Shown here: positions 9,336 through 27,704 of the stretch, one piece after another
How the letters are laid out: each line of letters opens with the position of its first letter
How positions within the stretch are numbered: position 1 is the stretch's first letter
Assembly (NCBI RefSeq): GCF_900167415.1
Contig: NZ_FUWU01000007.1
Coordinates: 1 to 64,000, forward strand
DNA length: 64,000 nucleotides
Direction of reading: 5' to 3'
From: Fibrobacter intestinalis
Lineage (GTDB): Bacteria; Fibrobacterota; Fibrobacteria; Fibrobacterales; Fibrobacteraceae
Program-made: the position numbers and the translations under genes
The notes under the pieces: generated by a model
What the model saw: the letters and a program-made list of their open reading frames with translations, nothing else
The model's database searches: none
Told to the model about the DNA's origin: nothing

Positions 9336-9368
9336 AAAACGCTTTCCAACTTTCTTCACCGCTCAACC

Positions 9369-9383
9369 GTTTCAAAATGAAAC
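9369..9383. promoter_or_regulatory. Palindrome GTTTCA-N3-TGAAAC upstream of groES
   Basis: GTTTCAAAATGAAAC is a perfect inverted repeat. The identical 15-mer lies before dnaK and close variants lie before grpE and clpB. Its centre is about 84 bp upstream of the -12 element at 9459-9460. A further TGAAAC half-site follows at 9390-9395. Proposed binding site for a sigma-54 activator. Confidence 0.8.
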
Positions 9384-9445
9384 GTTCGATGAAACGAATC
9401 GCCTTTTTACTTTCATTTTGCGCCGTTTTTAATGGAAAATCAAAT

Positions 9446-9461
9446 TGGCACGATTCTTGCA
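9446..9461 (+). promoter_or_regulatory. Sigma-54 promoter of groES-groEL
   Basis: TGGCACGATTCTTGCA is a complete match to the sigma-54 consensus TGGCACG-N4-TTGCA. The predicted start is near 9472, giving a leader of about 33 bases before the groES ATG. No CIRCE inverted repeat is present. Confidence 0.88.
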
Positions 9462-9504: not shown

Positions 9505-9786
9505 ATGATTAAGCCACTTGCAGACAGAGTTCTCATTGAACCGGCCCCGGCCGAAGAAAAGACCGTCAGCGGTCTCTATATTCCGGACAACGCCAAAGAA
9601 AAGCCCATGCAGGGCAAGGTGATTGCGGTTGGCCCCGGCAAAAAGGACGAAAACGGAAAATCCATTCCGATGGAAATCAAGGTCGGCGACCAAGTTCTTT
9701 ACGGCAAATACAGCGGAACGGAAGTTTCCGTCGAAGGCAAGGATTATCTGATTGTCCGTGAAAGCGATGTATTCGCGATTCTTTAA
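9505..9786 (+). CDS. groES: Co-chaperonin GroES
   Basis: The 93-residue lid subunit of the GroEL/GroES folding chamber. [20 protein letters not shown] at the N-terminus, and [16 protein letters not shown] and [15 protein letters not shown] further on are standard. An in-frame ATG at 9445 would begin inside the promoter; the ATG at 9505 has GAGGT upstream and matches the family start. groEL follows after 31 bases and is co-transcribed. Confidence 0.97.
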
Positions 9787-9793
9787 CAGGTAA

Positions 9794-11449
<1,656 letters not shown>

Positions 11450-11510: not shown

Positions 11511-11514
11511 AAAT

Positions 11515-11529
11515 GTTTCAAAATAGAAC
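11515..11529. promoter_or_regulatory. Palindrome GTTTCA-N3-TAGAAC upstream of grpE
   Basis: GTTTCAAAATAGAAC matches the groES/dnaK 15-mer at 13 of 15 positions; the right arm is imperfect. Its centre is about 63 bp upstream of the -12 element at 11584-11585. Confidence 0.65.
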
Positions 11530-11570
11530 GAATTTTTCGGGAAACGACGTTTTTTCAGCACAAATAGCAT

Positions 11571-11586
11571 TGGCATACATTTTGCT
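11571..11586 (+). promoter_or_regulatory. Sigma-54 promoter of grpE
   Basis: TGGCATACATTTTGCT has GG and GC ten bases apart and matches the -24/-12 consensus at the invariant positions. The ATG of grpE lies 47 bases further on. Confidence 0.8.
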
Positions 11587-11633: not shown

Positions 11634-12287
11634 ATGTCCGAAGAAAACAAAACACAAGACCCTCAAAACGACGACATTATGAAAGAGGCCGAAGAAATTC
11701 TTTCTTCCGAACCCCAAGACGAAGTTTCCCAAACGACGCCCGAACCATCTGCTGCGGAATCCACAGCAGAAACTTCTCCAGAACAACCTGCGGAAGAAAA
11801 GGCTCCCGAATCTCAAGCGGAAGCCGAAATCGAAAGCCTAAAATCCCAGCTGAACGAAAGTAAAGATCGTTATGTGCGTTTAATGGCGGAATTTGACAAT
11901 TATCGCCGCAGGACGGCCAAAGAACAGCTCGACATCATTGAAACGGCAAATGCCAAGCTCCTTGAAAAGCTCTCCGAAGTCCTCGACAATTTCGAACGGG
12001 CGTCCCATCCGGATAACAACAAGCAGAAAGACTACGATTCCTTTGCCAAAGGAATCCAGATGATTCACGACCAGTTTGCAAAAATCCTTTCCGATGCAGG
12101 ACTAGAACAGCTTGATCCTGTTGGAGAGCCTTTTGACCCGAACATTCATGAAGCCCTGATGAACCAGCCGTCCGATACCGTGCCCGAATCCCATGTCGTG
12201 CAGGTTTTTCAAAAAGGCTACCGGCTGAAAAACAAGCTGCTCAAAACAGCCAAAGTCATCGTTTCTTCCGGCCCCGTTTCAAAATGA
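11634..12287 (+). CDS. grpE: Nucleotide exchange factor GrpE
   Basis: Releases ADP from DnaK. The 217-residue protein has a long acidic, disordered N-terminus (about residues 1-58, rich in Glu, Pro and Ser). The GrpE coiled coil follows (ESLKSQLNESKDRYVRLMAEFDNYRRRTAKE), then the four-helix/beta-wing part with GEPFDPNIHEALMNQPSD and HVVQVFQKGYRLKNKLLKTAKVIVS. Its stop codon lies inside the palindrome that serves dnaK, so grpE and dnaK probably have separate promoters under the same control. Confidence 0.95.
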   Translation: MSEENKTQDPQNDDIMKEAEEILSSEPQDEVSQTTPEPSAAESTAETSPEQPAEEKAPESQAEAEIESLKSQLNESKDRYVRLMAEFDNYRRRTAKEQLDIIETANAKLLEKLSEVLDNFERASHPDNNKQKDYDSFAKGIQMIHDQFAKILSDAGLEQLDPVGEPFDPNIHEALMNQPSDTVPESHVVQVFQKGYRLKNKLLKTAKVIVSSGPVSK

Positions 12288-12290
12288 AAC
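12276..12290. promoter_or_regulatory. Palindrome GTTTCA-N3-TGAAAC upstream of dnaK
   Basis: GTTTCAAAATGAAAC is identical to the groES site and overlaps the last codons and stop of grpE. Its centre is about 73 bp upstream of the -12 element at 12355-12356. Confidence 0.8.
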
Positions 12291-12341
12291 ATTTTCAAAC
12301 GAGTATGGCGAAAATGAATGAATTTCAACACTTTGAAAAAA

Positions 12342-12357
12342 TGGCACAATTTTTGCT
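12342..12357 (+). promoter_or_regulatory. Sigma-54 promoter of dnaK
   Basis: TGGCACAATTTTTGCT matches the sigma-54 consensus with the exact GG-N10-GC spacing. It lies 34 bases before the dnaK ATG, with AAAGGAG in between as ribosome binding site. Confidence 0.87.
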
Positions 12358-12391: not shown

Positions 12392-14311
12392 ATGAGTAAG
12401 ATTATCGGTATTGACCTCGGAACGACCAACAGCTGCGTTTCTGTCATGGAAGGCGGCAAGCCGGTCGTCATCGCCAATGCGGAAGGATTCCGCACCACCC
12501 CGTCCATTGTCGCTTTCGGCAAAAACGGCGAGCACCTGGTTGGCCACGTGGCAAAACGCCAAGCTATCACCAATCCGGAAAACACAGTCTATTCCATCAA
12601 ACGCTTTATGGGTCGCCATGCAGGCGAATGCAGCGAAGCCGAAAAACACATGCCCTACAAACTCGTCGGTTCGGGCAACGATCTGGTTCGCGTGAAAATC
12701 GGCGACAAGGAATTCGCTCCGCCAGAAATTTCCGCGATGGTTCTTCAGGCGATGAAGAAAACCGCCGAAGACTACTTGGGACAGCCGGTAACGCAGGCGG
12801 TTATCACGGTTCCCGCCTACTTTAGCGATTCGCAGCGCCAAGCGACGAAAGATGCCGGAAAAATTGCCGGCCTAGACGTTCTCCGTATTGTGAACGAACC
12901 GACAGCTGCCGCGCTCGCCTATGGACTGGATTCTAAAAAGAGCGAAAAGGTCGCCGTGTATGACTTGGGCGGCGGAACTTTCGATATTTCCATCTTGGAA
13001 ATCGACGACGGGATGTTCAGCGTGAAAGCGACAAACGGCGACACGATGCTCGGCGGCGACAACTTTGACGAAGTGATTATCGACTGGATCAACGAAGAGT
13101 TCAAAAAGGAAAATCCTGGCATTGATTTAAAGAAAGACAAGATGGCTCTGCAACGTTTGAAAGACGCCGCGGAAAAAGCCAAGATCGACCTGTCCGCAAC
13201 GACTTCGACCAATATCAACTTGCCGTTTATCACTGCGGACGCAACCGGCCCGAAGCACTTGGACTTGACCCTTACCCGCGCCAAATTCGACCAGATTACG
13301 GCTGACCTTGTAGAACGCACCATCGGTCCCTGCCGGAAATGCCTTGAAGATTCCGGTTTCAAGCTCTCCGACATCGACGAAGTGATTCTGGTCGGCGGAT
13401 CGACGCGTATTCCGGCTGTGCAGGCCAAAGTCAAGGAATTCTTTGGCAAGGATCCGAACAAGACCGTAAACCCGGACGAAGTCGTCGCCATCGGCGCAGC
13501 CGTTCAGGGAGCCGTCCTTTCGGGCGATTCTTCGGTCAAAGACGTTTTGCTCCTTGACGTCACCCCGCTTTCCCTGGGCATTGAAACCCTCGGCGGCGTG
13601 ATGACCAAACTCATCGAACGCAACACCACGATTCCGACCAAAAAGAGCCAGGTTTTTTCGACGGCAGAAGACAACCAGTCCGCTGTAACCATTCACGTGC
13701 TTCAAGGCGAACGTACCTATGCCCGCGACAACCGCACCCTCGGACACTTCGACTTGACAGGCATCAGCCCCAAGCCGCGTGGAGTGCCCCAAATCGAAGT
13801 CACATTCGATATCGATGCGAACGGCATTGTCCACGTTTCTGCAAAGGATAAGGAAACCGGAAAGGAACAATCCATCAAGATTACCTCTTCCAGCGGACTT
13901 TCCGAAGAAGATATTGAACGCATGAAGAAAGACGCCGAAGCCAATGCCGAAAAGGACAAGGCCGACCGCGAAAAAGAAGACGCCAAGAACAAGGCCGAAC
14001 AGATCGTCTATCAGGCGGAAAAACAGCTCAAGGAAGTCGGCGATAAAATTCCTGCCGACACCAAGAGCCAGCTTGAAGCCGCGATTCAAGAAATCAAGGA
14101 CAAAAAGGACAACGGTTCCAAGGCCGAAATCGATGCCGCAGTCGAAAAGCTGCAAAACATGCTCGGTTCCATGGCGGGAGCAGCACAAGGAGCTCCGAAT
14201 GCGGGAGCCAGTGCATCTTCCGCTCCGAACAGCGGCGCTCAGGCGGGTAAAAAAGACGACGGTCCTATTGACGCCGACTACACCGTTGTCGATGACGACA
14301 AGAAGAACTAA
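12392..14311 (+). CDS. dnaK: Chaperone DnaK (Hsp70)
   Basis: ATP-driven chaperone of 639 residues, standard for Dna[19 protein letters not shown] at the N-terminus, [15 protein letters not shown] (near residue 190) and [14 protein letters not shown] (near 330) are the Hsp70 signatures. The interdomain linker [18 protein letters not shown] lies near 385, and the C-terminal tail is Gly/Ala-rich and ends [15 protein letters not shown]. It works with GrpE upstream and DnaJ downstream. A terminator separates it from dnaJ. Confidence 0.98.
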
Positions 14312-14459: not shown

Positions 14460-15596
14460 ATGGCCGAGAAACGAGATTACTACGAAGTCCTAGGCGTTGC
14501 TAAGAACGCCAGTGCTGACGAAATCAAGCACGCATACAAAAAACTCGCCATCAAATACCATCCGGACAAAAATCCGGGAGATAAAGAAGCGGAAGAAAAA
14601 TTCAAAGAGGCTGCCGAAGCCTACGAAGTTCTTTCCGATTCAAAAAAACGCGCCCAATACGATCAGTTCGGACACGCCATGCCAGGTGCCGGCGGCGCTG
14701 GAGGATTCGGCGGTTTCGGCGGCTTTGAAGACATCTTCAGTCAGTTCGGCGATATTTTTGGTGGCGGATTCGGCGGATTCCGTTCCTCTCGAAGCGGCGG
14801 CAGGCAAGGTCCTCCACGCGGTCAGGATTTGCAAATCAAAATTGCGCTCTCTTACAAAGAAATTCTTTCCGGAGCCACTAAAAAGGTTCGCCTAAAAAGA
14901 TACGCCCCTTGTACGGAATGCGCGGGGAAAGGTGGAGAAGGGGTAAAAACCTGCCCCACCTGTCATGGTACAGGTACTATTCGCCATGTCACACGCTCCT
15001 TTTTCCAGATGGTAAGCGAAACGACCTGTTCCGATTGCGGCGGCACCGGTGAAGTCATCGCCAAACCTTGCGTGCATTGCCACGGAGAAGGGCGTATTCT
15101 CGAAGAAGAGACCATTTCGATTAAAATTCCTCTAGGCATTTCCGAAGGGCAGTATCTGAAACTTCGCGGCGAAGGACACTGCGGTCCGCGCGGTGGAGCT
15201 TCGGGGGATTTGCTCGTCATCATTGCAGAAAAAACAGACGATTTTTACACCCGCGAAGGGGACGATCTGCATTGCTCTATAGACATTCCCGTCTATAAGC
15301 TTGCGCTAGGTGGGACCCAACGGATTCCGACCCTAGACGGCAGCGAGGTTTCCATCAAAATCGCCGCCGGAACTCAGCCCGGAGCCATTTTCCGCCTGAA
15401 AGGGCAAGGACTTCCTCAATTAAATGGAGGCAGCAACAGTCGCGGCAATCTTTTTGTCGAGGCAAAAGCATTTATTCCAACAGACCTTTCGTCGAAAGAA
15501 AAAGATCTTTACAAGCAGCTTTCTGAAATCCGCAAGGACAAGGACACCGCCAAAGACGATTCCCTGCTCGAAAAGGTGAAAGGACTCTTCTCGTAA
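14460..15596 (+). CDS. dnaJ: Chaperone DnaJ (Hsp40)
   Basis: Stimulates the DnaK ATPase and delivers substrates. The 378-residue type A protein has the J domain (residues 1-70, YHPDKNPG with the HPD tripeptide). A Gly/Phe-rich linker (about 76-115) follows, then four zinc motifs ([32 protein letters not shown]), then the substrate-binding and dimerisation part with [17 protein letters not shown]. All zinc cysteines are present. Confidence 0.97.
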
Positions 15597-21255: not shown

Positions 21256-23802
21256 CTATCCTATAATTTGGAATTCACCGTCGCTGAAATCCATCGTACA
21301 GGGCTTTTCCGGTTGCACGTCACCGGCGAGAATCGCGTGGGAAAGTTTCCGTTCCACTTCCCTGTCCAAAAATCTCTGGATGGGACGCGCTCCAAATTCC
21401 GGGCTATACGACTTGTCGGCAATTTCCTGCAACGCGGCATCTGTCGCCGACACGATATAGCCTTCGCGAGCGGCCCGTTCGGCAAGATTCTTGAACTTGA
21501 GAGCGACAATCCGGCGAATTTCCTCTTTGCTCAGCGCCTTGAAAAGCAGAACTTCATCCAGACGGTTCAAAAATTCCGGGCGGAAGAATCCTTTCAGGCG
21601 AGGCATTACGTCGTCCATGGAGACCTCTCCGCTCTTGCCGAACAAGTCGGAACCCAGATTGGAAGTCATCAGGATTATCGTATTTTTGAAATTCACCGTG
21701 CGACCTTTGCCGTCCGTCAAGCGACCATCATCTAGCACCTGCAACAAAGCGTTGAATACATCCGGATGCGCCTTTTCCACTTCGTCGAGAAGCACCACGG
21801 AATACGGTTTCGTGCGAACCGCTTCGGTAAGCTGCCCACCTTCTTCGTAGCCGACATATCCCGGAGGCGCGCCTATCAAGCGGGAAACGGAATGCTTCTC
21901 CATGTATTCGCTCATGTCGATGCGGATAACGGCGCTTTCGCTGTCAAAAAGTTCTTCGGCAAGAGCTTTCGCCAGTTCCGTTTTACCGACGCCCGTAGGT
22001 CCCAGAAAGAGGAAGCTGCCCACCGGTGCATTCTCCCGAGAAAGTCCGCTACGGTTCCGCAAAATCGCTTCGGACACCGCAGACACAGCAGAATCCTGCC
22101 CGATGACTCGTTCATGCAGTCGTTTTTCCAAGTGGAGGAGCTTCGCCCTTTCCGTTTCGCGCAGACGCGTCACAGGGATTCCCGTCCAACGGCTGACCAC
22201 CTGCGAAACCGTTTCTTCCGTCACTTCCTGCGTCAATTCACCATTTTCGGAATCCTGACGTGCCAACTTTTCCAATTCGCCGACGCGCTTTTCCAAATTC
22301 ACAATCGTATTGTATTTGAGTTCCGCAGCACGCGCCAGATCGTAGCGGGATTCCGCCTGTTCCATTTCTTCGCGCGCCTTGTGCAATGCTTCCTTGGCAT
22401 CTTTCAGTTCGTTGAACTTGGAGCGGCGTTCCTGCCATCTCGCCTGCATCGCCGAAACTGCGGCTGAGGTCGTTTTCAATTCCTCCCTCAACTCGGCCAG
22501 ACGCTTTTTGCTTTTTTCGTCGCTTTCCTTGGCCAGAGCCTGTTCTTCGATTTTCAGCTGCAATTCCTTGCGTTGCAGGTTGTCCAAATCTTCCGGCACC
22601 GTATCCAGCTGCGTTTTCAGCATACTCGCGGCTTCGTCTATCAAGTCGATGGCCTTGTCCGGCAAAAATCGGTCGGCAATATAGCGTCCCGAAAGTTTTA
22701 CCGCAGCAACCAAAGCGTCGTCATGGATTCGCACGCCGTGATGCGATTCAAAGCTTTCCTTGACACCGCGCAAAATCGAAATCGCTTCATCCTGAGTCGG
22801 CTCGAAAACGGACACCGGCTGGAAACGCCGTTCCAGAGCTGCATCCTTTTCAATGTAACGCCGATATTCCTGCGTCGTCGTCGCTCCAATGCAATGCAGT
22901 TCCCCACGAGCCAATTTGGGCTTGAGCATATTTCCCAAATCCATGCTGCCCTCGGTTTTTCCCGCCCCCACAATCGTGTGCAATTCGTCGATAAAGAGCA
23001 GCGTATTGCCATCTTCGTCCAAGGCGTTCAACACGCTTTTCAGGCGTTCTTCAAAATCGCCACGGTATTTGGCGCCTGCCATCAACGCAGACAAGTCCAA
23101 AGAAAAGAGCTTTTTGCCCTTGAGCGCATCGGGAACGTCGCCCTTGTGGATACGCATCGCCAATCCTTCGACAATCGCCGTTTTGCCGACGCCAGGTTCT
23201 CCGACAAGCACCGGATTATTTTTCGTCTTTCGAGAAAGAATCAAAATGACCCGACGGATTTCTTCTTCACGACCAATCACCGGATCGAGCTTGCCCTCTT
23301 CGGCGAGGGCGACCAGCTCCCTGCCGTACAATTTGAGCGGCGATTCCTCTTCGGCGACGGCGGCGGCACTCATCGGATCCGAAAGCCAGGTTTCCACCAC
23401 TTCCGCACTGCCCAGCGCATCTTCAAAAATTTTCACCATGCGGCGATCTTGCGCAAAACGCATCAAGGCGATCAGCATATCGCTGGGGCTTGCGGGCTGC
23501 GAGTTCTTGCGACCTTCCTGAATGGCGGCACGAAGCACCCGAGAAAGATCGGCATCCGGCGTTCCCGCATCCGGATTGACTTCCACCAATTTCGGTACGG
23601 CATCCAAAAAAGAAGCGAGCTTTCCCCGCATTTCCTTGGTGTCCGCTTTTTTCGCTCGAAAAAGATTTTTCAGCCGGGCATCGGGGGACTCCAAAAGGCC
23701 GAACGCCAAATGGACCGTTCCCAAATACGAATGCGATTTCTTGTCCATCAGTTCCTGCGCTTTCGCCAGAATCTTTTTCGCATCGCTTGTAAATTCTTCC
23801 AT
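21256..23802 (-). CDS. clpB: Disaggregase ClpB (AAA+ chaperone)
   Basis: The 848-residue protein has a Clp N-domain (about residues 1-145) and a first AAA+ module with Walker A GEPGVGKTAIVEG. A long coiled-coil M domain (about 385-510) marks ClpB rather than ClpA or ClpC. The second AAA+ module has GPTGVGKTELAKALAEELF and VVLLDEVEKAHPDVFN, and GARPIQRFLDREVERKL near the end is the C-terminal signature. It works with DnaK-DnaJ-GrpE on aggregated proteins. A canonical sigma-54 promoter and the GTTTCA-N3-TGAAAC palindrome lie upstream, as for the other chaperone genes. Confidence 0.95.
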   Translation of the reverse strand: MEEFTSDAKKILAKAQELMDKKSHSYLGTVHLAFGLLESPDARLKNLFRAKKADTKEMRGKLASFLDAVPKLVEVNPDAGTPDADLSRVLRAAIQEGRKNSQPASPSDMLIALMRFAQDRRMVKIFEDALGSAEVVETWLSDPMSAAAVAEEESPLKLYGRELVALAEEGKLDPVIGREEEIRRVILILSRKTKNNPVLVGEPGVGKTAIVEGLAMRIHKGDVPDALKGKKLFSLDLSALMAGAKYRGDFEERLKSVLNALDEDGNTLLFIDELHTIVGAGKTEGSMDLGNMLKPKLARGELHCIGATTTQEYRRYIEKDAALERRFQPVSVFEPTQDEAISILRGVKESFESHHGVRIHDDALVAAVKLSGRYIADRFLPDKAIDLIDEAASMLKTQLDTVPEDLDNLQRKELQLKIEEQALAKESDEKSKKRLAELREELKTTSAAVSAMQARWQERRSKFNELKDAKEALHKAREEMEQAESRYDLARAAELKYNTIVNLEKRVGELEKLARQDSENGELTQEVTEETVSQVVSRWTGIPVTRLRETERAKLLHLEKRLHERVIGQDSAVSAVSEAILRNRSGLSRENAPVGSFLFLGPTGVGKTELAKALAEELFDSESAVIRIDMSEYMEKHSVSRLIGAPPGYVGYEEGGQLTEAVRTKPYSVVLLDEVEKAHPDVFNALLQVLDDGRLTDGKGRTVNFKNTIILMTSNLGSDLFGKSGEVSMDDVMPRLKGFFRPEFLNRLDEVLLFKALSKEEIRRIVALKFKNLAERAAREGYIVSATDAALQEIADKSYSPEFGARPIQRFLDREVERKLSHAILAGDVQPEKPCTMDFSDGEFQIIG

Positions 23803-23851: not shown

Positions 23852-23867
23852 TGCAAAAGCCGTGCCA
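23852..23867 (-). promoter_or_regulatory. Sigma-54 promoter of clpB
   Basis: On the minus strand the site reads TGGCACGGCTTTTGCA, a complete match to the sigma-54 consensus with GG-N10-GC spacing. It lies 49 bases before the clpB ATG at 23802. Confidence 0.88.
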
Positions 23868-23917
23868 CTTTGAAATCCGCACGAAAATGCGAAAATCCGG
23901 AGTCCGACGATTCCAAC

Positions 23918-23932
23918 GTTTCATTCTGAAAC
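23918..23932. promoter_or_regulatory. Palindrome GTTTCA-N3-TGAAAC upstream of clpB
   Basis: GTTTCATTCTGAAAC has both 6-bp arms identical to the groES and dnaK sites and a different three-base spacer. Its centre is about 72 bp upstream of the -12 element (23853-23854 on the minus strand). Confidence 0.82.
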
Positions 23933-24075
23933 ATTTCTTTTCTTCTCTTGCGACTTTCATCGAAACGCAAGCACTTTTTATGGCAAAAAGACATTGCAGC
24001 CAGAGGAAATTTTCTAAATTGAAGCCGTCTAACTAACGGCGGATAAAAACGCCACAACTAAAACGAGGTAAAACA

Positions 24076-25739: not shown

Positions 25740-27704
25740 TTACAAAGGCAGCAACGCATCCATATTATTTTGGCTGCGAATAAATTCCAGGAACGCTTCT
25801 TCGTTCAAAGGCTTTGAAAAATAAAATCCCTGGATTTTATTTGCTCCAGCTTCCAAAGCCCGCTCCAGCTGCTCGTGAGATTCGACACGTTTTAGCACCA
25901 CATCGAATTGGAATTTGCGCATCAGCTGCATCCATTCGCTTGAGAAATTTTTCATATCCTTGCGCGTTTTTTTTTTTAAGATGGCGGCATCCAGTTTGAA
26001 GGTTTTAAAATCCTGATAAAGCATCTGAACCATATTCACGCCGCCTACGCCGGAATCGTCCAGAGAAAACGAAAAACCTTGCCGACAAAGCCTTTCATAA
26101 TGCCTTTGCAGTTTTTCTTTTTCACGGAAAAGAAAAGCCGATTGGACTTCCAGATTGATCCTTTCCGCCGAAACTTCATTTTTTTCCAAAATGCGTTCAA
26201 AATTTTCCGCCATATCGTCCGCATAAAACTGGGACATGCACAAATTGACGTCTATTTTATGCAGTCCGAATTTTTGGGGTTGCGCCGAACGCCATAAACG
26301 ACACACTTGATCCAGAACTATACATCCCATTTCATGAATCATGCCGTTCCGCTCTGCAACGGGAATGAACTCCGTCGGAGAAATGCTGCCGTAATTCGGA
26401 TTGGACAAGCGAAGAAGTGCCTCGGCGCTATCAAACATTTCTGTTTTGGCATTCCATATCGGCTGATAGTAAACTTCAAAAGCTTTTTGGCGAATCGCCC
26501 AGTGCAAGATGCGCTCGATTTCCGTTTGTCGCTTGAATTTTTCCACATCTTCCGCATGATGCAAAGCAAAACCCGATTGGAAGGAATTGCAATCATCATC
26601 GCCAAGTTCCGCCAGCAATTCCGAACTCTGCATTTCATCGGGAACGCTCACGATATCGACACTCGTGGACATGGGCACGGAACTGGTTTCTAAAAAAGCG
26701 GAAGACTGGACGATTTCTTTGAAACAATCAGCAAAAGCAGCACACGCCTCTCGGCTCTCCATGGTAATAATCCCAATTTTATCCTGCCCAATACTATAAA
26801 CCGTCCCCTGGATATTTTTATTGAGCCAAAGGACAATCGACCTGGTCGCTTTTTCCATTTCTTCATGCCCGATCATGCGCAAGAGCATCTTGTAATTCCG
26901 CAGCGTAATGACCATGACCCTATATTGGCGCTGCGTCCGGATGAGGCGTTCATTGTCCACAATAAATATGTGGCTGTTATAGCCCCCCGTAATCACGTCC
27001 GTCCGTGAACCCTCCATTTCTATCAACAGCATAATACCCAACAGGGCTAGCGATTCGCCGAAAAGTTCCACCTGAAGCCATGGGAAAAGAAGCTGCACGA
27101 AGGAACCGCCAAGAATGCAGGCGATGACAAAGCTGAGCGCAACCATATTGCTCTTGACCAAAATAAAGCGATAAATCCAGATTTCCCGGATGGCAAAAAT
27201 GAAATAGCCGATTTCCAGCGCATAGATGAGAAGTTCCAAGGGGCCGCGGGTGTAAAGGATGTCGTCCTGGTAGAAAAAAATGAGCCCCGTCAGCGGATTT
27301 GTTAAAATAAAAAGTTCGACGAGCAGCGCCGGAGAAAGGAAAAGGACGATTTTTTTCAACGTCCGCATTTTGCCGCTATTATTGATTAAAACAACATAGA
27401 GAGCAAAAAGAGAAGCCAAAATGGAATGGAAAGCGAAGTAACTGGTCTGAAAAAATTCCTGCACGAGATGGGGAAAATTTTTCCCAGGCAAATTGAACGG
27501 TTTCAAGACGCTCGCCGCAGTAATCGAAAAGGAAGAGAACAGCAGACAGAAAAGCAGACATTCGAATACGCAACTGTGATCCCTTTGAGGAGTCTTGTTG
27601 CTATAGTAATAGACGAGACAATAGAGAAGAACCGCTATCGAGCAGATATAAAAGCAAAAATCCGGAGTCAGCATTTCCATAGAGTTCATTTCAAGAAGCC
27701 CCAA
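25740..27704 (-). CDS. Membrane-bound EAL-domain protein, probably catalytically degenerate
   Basis: The 654-residue protein has about seven hydrophobic segments (residues 15-230), a middle region that looks like a decayed GGDEF domain (no GGDEF motif), and a C-terminal EAL domain (about 395-645). EAL domains hydrolyse cyclic-di-GMP. SAEALLRL, VNLCMSQF, LDDSGVGG, FKLD and KIQGFYFSKPL retain most metal-ligand positions. The usual AEGVE block reads LKRVE, replacing the first Glu (general base in RocR-type enzymes) with Lys, and EITE reads EVQS. It may therefore bind rather than cleave c-di-GMP. The start is a TTG at 27704 with AGGA upstream; ATG at 27689 is an alternative. Confidence 0.82.
   Translation of the reverse strand: MGLLEMNSMEMLTPDFCFYICSIAVLLYCLVYYYSNKTPQRDHSCVFECLLFCLLFSSFSITAASVLKPFNLPGKNFPHLVQEFFQTSYFAFHSILASLFALYVVLINNSGKMRTLKKIVLFLSPALLVELFILTNPLTGLIFFYQDDILYTRGPLELLIYALEIGYFIFAIREIWIYRFILVKSNMVALSFVIACILGGSFVQLLFPWLQVELFGESLALLGIMLLIEMEGSRTDVITGGYNSHIFIVDNERLIRTQRQYRVMVITLRNYKMLLRMIGHEEMEKATRSIVLWLNKNIQGTVYSIGQDKIGIITMESREACAAFADCFKEIVQSSAFLETSSVPMSTSVDIVSVPDEMQSSELLAELGDDDCNSFQSGFALHHAEDVEKFKRQTEIERILHWAIRQKAFEVYYQPIWNAKTEMFDSAEALLRLSNPNYGSISPTEFIPVAERNGMIHEMGCIVLDQVCRLWRSAQPQKFGLHKIDVNLCMSQFYADDMAENFERILEKNEVSAERINLEVQSAFLFREKEKLQRHYERLCRQGFSFSLDDSGVGGVNMVQMLYQDFKTFKLDAAILKKKTRKDMKNFSSEWMQLMRKFQFDVVLKRVESHEQLERALEAGANKIQGFYFSKPLNEEAFLEFIRSQNNMDALLPL

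Follow-up and report, generated by a model that had tools for sequence, protein, structure and literature searches.

Introduction

Control of bacterial chaperone genes usually falls to sigma-32 or to a repressor, HrcA being one example. For the activators NtrC and NifA, classical bench work has established that upstream sites depend on the face of the helix on which they lie. The promoters described here are similar in that the activator appears to be confined to a defined helix face, but differ in that natural promoters of a whole phylum supply the rule, over nine turns and with sites as near as 32 bp to the -12 element.

An NtrC-like activator of a heat-shock gene has been reported in Myxococcus xanthus, where HsfA is part of the HsfA/HsfB-lonD system (Ueki and Inouye 2002 in PMC9109919). 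As far as that description goes, HsfA is comparable to the candidate activator of this work, P0001, both being NtrC-like enhancer-binding proteins assigned to heat-shock genes. In the same description, a hybrid kinase phosphorylates the receiver of HsfA and one heat-shock target is known, whereas P0001 would serve the core chaperone set. Furthermore, and unlike HsfA, P0001 has a receiver that mostly lacks the phosphorylatable aspartate, and its gene is located behind dnaJ in several families. Sigma-54 promoters have also been predicted for groES, grpE and dnaK in Bacteroidota and Planctomycetota (PMC12316311), which are the same genes as in Fibrobacterota. Nonetheless, in the portion of that article that deals with them, these chaperone genes are given no operator, spacing or activator, in contrast with the present case, and the term Fibrobacter is absent from its text. 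A third comparison is with PrpR, given that the same TTTCA-N3-TGAAAC precedes prpB in Duganella, Massilia and Stenotrophomonas and that the recognition helix is nearly the same. PrpR, however, has a propionate sensor domain and activates prpBCDE, whereas P0001 has a receiver domain and chaperone targets. The PrpR of Xanthomonas citri has been reported to be a repressor that recognizes a different palindrome (PMC12153269).

No report of sigma-54 control of heat shock in Fibrobacter or Fibrobacterota was found in the open literature. That sigma-54 activators depend on helical phase is not new as a principle; the regulon, operator and activator discussed below, which together point to a stress-response circuit, appear to be undescribed. 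The analysis started from a stretch of 64,000 nucleotides of Fibrobacter intestinalis (contig NZ_FUWU01000007.1), which is referred to as the window.

Chaperone promoters in the window

Gene identities in the window were assigned with NCBIfam profiles, and distances were measured from the middle base of the palindrome to the midpoint of the GC in the -12 element. The groES, grpE, dnaK and clpB genes are each preceded by a palindrome and a sigma-54 box (Table 1). The operators are exact or near-exact at groES, dnaK and clpB. The imperfect palindrome of grpE may be inferred to act as an operator by analogy with relatives, where exact grpE operators exist. The GG and GC of TGGCAC-N5-TTGC are found 10 bp apart in all four promoters, with an exact box at groES, dnaK and clpB and one mismatch at grpE. 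The window contains three exact pairs of operator and box, while 100 shuffles gave none, which is far beyond chance. Exact 13-bp palindromes occur 26 times in the genome, most of them without a sigma-54 box and with a weaker flank.

Table 1. Operators, sigma-54 boxes and genes of the four chaperone promoters in the window.
Feature	Positions	Strand	Sequence or profile	Remarks
groES operator	9368-9384	+	CGTTTCAAAATGAAACG	arms CGTTTCA and TGAAACG around AAA; centre 9376; same operator 5' of groES in other Fibrobacterota
groES third half-site	9390-9395	+	TGAAAC	12 bp past the promoter-proximal arm
groES sigma-54 -24/-12 box	9446-9460	+	TGGCACGATTCTTGC	zero mismatches
groES	9505-9786	+	NF001531
groEL	9818-11449	+	TIGR02348
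grpE putative operator	11514-11530	+	TGTTTCAAAATAGAACG	imperfect, 3 mismatches of 14
grpE sigma-54 box	11571-11585	+	TGGCATACATTTTGC	one mismatch
grpE	11634-12287	+	NF010738
dnaK operator	12275-12291	+	CGTTTCAAAATGAAACA
dnaK sigma-54 box	12342-12356	+	TGGCACAATTTTTGC	zero mismatches
dnaK	12392-14311	+	TIGR02350
dnaJ	14460-15596	+	TIGR02349
clpB operator	23917-23933	-
clpB sigma-54 box	23853-23867	-	TGGCACGGCTTTTGC	zero mismatches
clpB	21256-23802	-	TIGR03346 (best match)	1126 bits, below the curated cut-off of 1232

The initial annotation of the window had estimated the distance from palindrome to -12 element at about 63 (grpE), 72 (clpB), 73 (dnaK) and 84 bp (groES), and the measured values of 62.5, 71.5, 72.5 and 83.5 bp agree with it. 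The TGAAAC half-site that it had pointed out behind the groES palindrome is also present, and the same 12-bp step is seen in congeneric groES promoters: in the genus, five groES promoters have the third half-site at equal spacing, and it is visible in the match of G140 too. The operator of dnaK overlaps the end of grpE, with the grpE stop codon TGA (12285-12287) forming part of it.

The predicted regulon in Fibrobacterota

Across Fibrobacterota, the main chaperone genes have predicted sigma-54 promoters and a common upstream operator that is almost always located whole helical turns away. Sites beyond the window were located by pattern searches in 168 Fibrobacterota genomes, using TTTCA-N3-TGAAA, a variable gap and TGGCAY-N5-TTGC, with three gap ranges. 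These strict scans gave matches in 32, 19 and 24 genomes, respectively, while the reversed control pattern gave none in any strict scan of the 168 genomes. The readable downstream genes are nearly all groES, dnaK, grpE, clpB and hsp20, plus secA in Fibrobacter; strict matches are few in many Fibrobacter genomes. The promoter-proximal arm reads TGAAAC, with the exception of a few matches that were set aside, and any base may precede the distal TTTCA. The matches set aside as chance are strict ones that end in TGAAAT or TGAAAA (e.g., L060, L079 and one in G163); those of L060 and L079 were treated in this way because their genes are not recognizable chaperones. Relaxing the box to TGG-N8-TTGC adds htpG and further groES genes with very few others, at the cost of one control match. 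RpoN itself is encoded in the genome of the window (PF04552, G000:C36) and is present in 21 of the 21 genomes examined.

Some of the sites deserve separate mention. In many Fibrobacter species (L081-L102 and others) the operator of secA is just 31.5-32.5 bp from the -12 element, and since secA carries the operator, the translocation motor would join the chaperone regulon. In the genome of the window, htpG, which codes for Hsp90 (L018, G000:C37:25200-28200), is provided with a sigma-54 box, TGGCACGGTTATTGC, and an operator, GTTTCATTTTGAAAC, both of them exact; the operator palindrome is at 26704-26716, 45.5 bp downstream of the -12 element and inside the 5' untranslated region. A gene for a sigma-70-type factor (L064, G038:C11) has operator and sigma-54 box at a distance of 112.5 bp, a spacing that shares the phase of those at chaperone genes.

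Helical phase of the operator

It had been proposed from the window that the palindrome faces the same side of the helix at each promoter. The four spacings of the window taken alone give R=0.93, with p=0.015 at a fixed period of 10.5 bp and p=0.047 when the period is left free between 10 and 11 bp, and are only weak, marginally non-random evidence of periodicity. For this reason, the spacing test was extended to the Fibrobacterota genomes, where the distances from operator to -12 element cluster at 32, 42, 53, 63, 72, 83, 93, 103, 113 and 124 bp. Counting one value per gene, genus and turn gives 33 states. These fit a period of 10.20 bp best, and their R of 0.69 was reached by none of 200,000 random sets when the period is free between 8 and 14 bp (p<5e-6). 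The bootstrap 95% interval of the period is about 10.1-10.4 bp, with limits of about 10.0-10.4 bp also obtained. Within 1.75 bp of the lattice are 29 of the 33 states, the four out of phase being clpB in G030 (76.5 bp), groES in G096 (97.5 bp), htpG in G089 (57.5 bp) and dnaK in G166 (78.5 bp). Secondary operators with one mismatch are found at 53.5 bp in Fibrobacter dnaK and at 103.5-105.5 bp in groES of genus g4. No periodicity is seen for dnaK, groES and secA when the palindrome is measured to the start codon (R=0.28, versus 0.69 to the -12 element).

The placement on one helix face was borne out by sites outside the genus of the window, given that the 28 gene-by-genus states that are left without it match the phase set by grpE, clpB, dnaK and groES of the window (p=6e-7 at 10.2 bp and 7e-6 at 10.5 bp in the V-test). 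The many-genome test for a 10.5-bp periodicity, which the initial annotation had put forward, has therefore shown the spacings to be periodic, with a best period of 10.2 bp. Its further proposal, that groups of TGAAA/TTTCA half-sites nearby are extra protomer sites, agrees with their enrichment in the spacers (18 full half-sites versus 2.2 in shuffles), but is weakened because these come from only about seven independent groups.

The candidate activator

The genome of the window encodes only five enhancer-binding proteins, all of them with AAA+ domains and GAFTGA-like loops. One of these, P0001 (L003, contig C82), has 469 residues and consists of an atypical receiver, an AAA+ domain with a GAFTGA loop and a Fis-type HTH, matching PF00158 (6.9e-67) and PF02954 (8.3e-15). 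The loop is GAFTGA in P0001 of this genome, with conservative variants in other orthologues. P0001 is the sole one of the five with the helix GISRATLWRKLK. This recognition helix, GISR[AST]TLWRK, is nearly invariant in 58 aligned orthologues and did not appear in any of the other enhancer-binding proteins that 13 Fibrobacterota genomes yielded. In other phyla, most enhancer-binding proteins whose genes lie close to this operator have the SR-x-T-L-W-R-K helix as well. A single orthologue of P0001 is present in 153 of 168 Fibrobacterota genomes and in 85 of the 89 good ones. Two genomes under the orthologue cut-off carry a shorter form without the receiver; in G029 the receiver is lacking. P0001 scored 351 bits against the NtrC equivalog and 259 bits against the PrpR equivalog, under the respective NCBIfam cut-offs of 558.6 and 499.2.

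In seven genomes of other families (G041, G153, G157, G160, G163, G165 and G166), the activator gene is directly 3' of dnaJ, mostly with hrcA, grpE or dnaK ahead. The linkage to dnaJ hints at a possible feedback from the chaperones. Among these genomes, a clean operator with sigma-54 box is found in the gene cluster only at dnaK of G166, where it is out of phase; in G153 such a pair precedes hsp20, away from the cluster of dnaJ and activator.

The receiver of P0001 matches PF00072. Its acceptor position is Asp in 17 of the 58 aligned orthologues, those from the genus of the window among them, and E, S, N, G, H or A in the other 41. None of the 58 retains the second acidic residue, and further residues of the active site have disappeared. 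For most of the phylum, such a degenerate receiver makes control by an ordinary phosphorelay less likely. Given that the residues for phosphorylation are lost in most orthologues, control through titration by a chaperone, or by a partner protein, would be at least as likely as phosphorylation. In Fibrobacteraceae (L313, L314, L315, L329, L330) the activator gene follows that of a PAS-domain membrane histidine kinase, and in several genomes of this family a separate single-domain receiver protein also precedes it; kinase and receiver are a possible set of signalling partners for the activator.

Synteny, distribution and recognition helix are all consistent with the single activator that had been suspected from the window, and indicate that P0001 probably binds the palindrome. 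The short enhancer-binding protein L005, which was the first candidate with a palindrome about 1.7 kb away, was rejected given that there is no box at that place and its recognition helix is different.

The operator outside the phylum

The scan outside Fibrobacterota used one genome per species with operator and box 42-72 bp apart, and its counts refer to the matches listed. Among these, prpB of Duganella, Massilia, Rugamonas and Stenotrophomonas, assigned by eye from the sequence and with PrpR-like genes adjoining, makes up the largest group; the others listed include genes for universal stress proteins and a mixture of further genes. After collapsing, the matches listed amount to 54 spacings, for which R is 0.42 at 10.2 bp and the phase is displaced by about 1.6 bp. 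The operator is also phased outside the phylum, more weakly than in Fibrobacterota, and this periodicity is taken as support rather than proof because the range spans three turns and some matches are due to chance.

Two sets of sites from other bacteria may be added. In three bacteria (L191, L192 and L109) dnaK likewise has this operator together with a sigma-54 box, the spacings being 72.5, 74.5 and 93.5 bp, and their genomes form a separate branch outside Fibrobacterota in the DnaK tree. Genes that resemble universal stress proteins by eye (L122, L142, L167, L214, L216) have operator and sigma-54 box in Nitrospirae, Desulfovibrio and other bacteria, several of them with an enhancer-binding protein gene nearby.

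HrcA and alternative readings

HrcA was found in none of the 15 genomes of families f1 and f2 (13 of the family of the window and two of its order), that of the window included, and no CIRCE was found within 5 mismatches in the window. All six genomes examined from families f4 and f5 have HrcA. The HrcA/CIRCE system is comparable to the present one in controlling chaperones through a palindrome, and HrcA persists beside the activator gene in sister families; it differs in being a repressor with another operator, and HrcA was not found in the Fibrobacteraceae genomes examined. Given that palindrome-binding repressors are the classical control of chaperones, the palindrome could belong to a repressor or another regulator, analogous to HrcA, HspR or CtsR, with a different activator serving the sigma-54 boxes. 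The location of the htpG operator in the 5' untranslated region fits with a repressor, and G166 retains both HrcA and an exact CIRCE before groES. Nonetheless, the palindrome is unlike CIRCE, and no HrcA was found in the 13 genomes from the family of the window. The operators are 32-124 bp upstream of the -12 element and phase-locked to it and not to the start codon, which speaks against a repressor because one that acts by blocking would not need phasing. Also, the gene that the operator most commonly precedes outside the phylum, among the matches listed, is prpB with an adjoining gene for a PrpR-like enhancer-binding protein. A repressor or other regulator of this kind is for these reasons considered unlikely.

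If an activator is accepted, it could still be one of the other four enhancer-binding proteins of the genome, which share with P0001 the AAA+ domain and GAFTGA-like loop. This is quite improbable, given that none of the four has the S-R-x-T-L-W-R helix, while P0001 has both the helix and the linkage to dnaJ. The spacing pattern might also reflect shared ancestry and chance with no mechanical meaning, because many matches are orthologues with inherited spacing, such as dnaK near 72 bp and Fibrobacter secA near 32 bp. However, when the data are collapsed to a single value for each gene and turn, 23 states remain, with a period of 10.15 bp, R=0.61 and p=0.002, or p=0.0004 under a null with an equal minimum separation, and 19 of the 23 states are within 1.75 bp of the lattice. 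Given, in addition, that the start-codon distances have no period and that the states from other phyla share the period of those of Fibrobacterota, ancestry and chance make a highly improbable explanation.

Proposed mechanism and significance

The reading in which we have good confidence is that TTTCA-N3-TGAAAC serves as operator for a single sigma-54 enhancer-binding protein, most likely P0001, which would activate the chaperone regulon of Fibrobacterota from helix-phased sites. From the sequences, we infer that P0001 is the activator of these promoters and that the signal would be heat or unfolded protein. A dimer of P0001 would bind the palindrome, with the extra half-sites recruiting further protomers, and the AAA+ ring would assemble on the side of the helix that faces the promoter and remodel the sigma-54 polymerase at -24/-12. 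Contact between ring and polymerase would have to be made from one side, and spacer insertions and deletions would for this reason survive mainly as whole helical turns. Operators 32-53 bp from the -12 element sit at about -44 to -65, beside the polymerase, and contact there is therefore probably direct. A loop is possible at 93 bp and more; a long one would hardly fit the sites of secA and grpE that are only 32 bp from the -12 element.

A more specific version is put forward tentatively, as one that falls somewhat short of being probable. According to it, the core chaperones of Fibrobacterota would depend on ATP-driven sigma-54 activation by a dnaJ-linked, phosphorylation-independent protein of the P0001 type, perhaps held inactive by DnaK/DnaJ, which would have replaced HrcA in Fibrobacteraceae and would act from a fixed face down to 32 bp, a distance too short for ordinary looping.

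The natural series of spacings from 32 to 124 bp allows the helical-face rule of an enhancer-binding protein to be read from evolution and not from constructs, and provides ready-made promoters for asking how near to the polymerase an activator can be placed. The correspondence of recognition helix and operator may allow activators to be matched to operators in unstudied bacteria. If true, an activator-driven sigma-54 chaperone regulon that extends across the phylum would represent a distinct solution to the control of chaperones.
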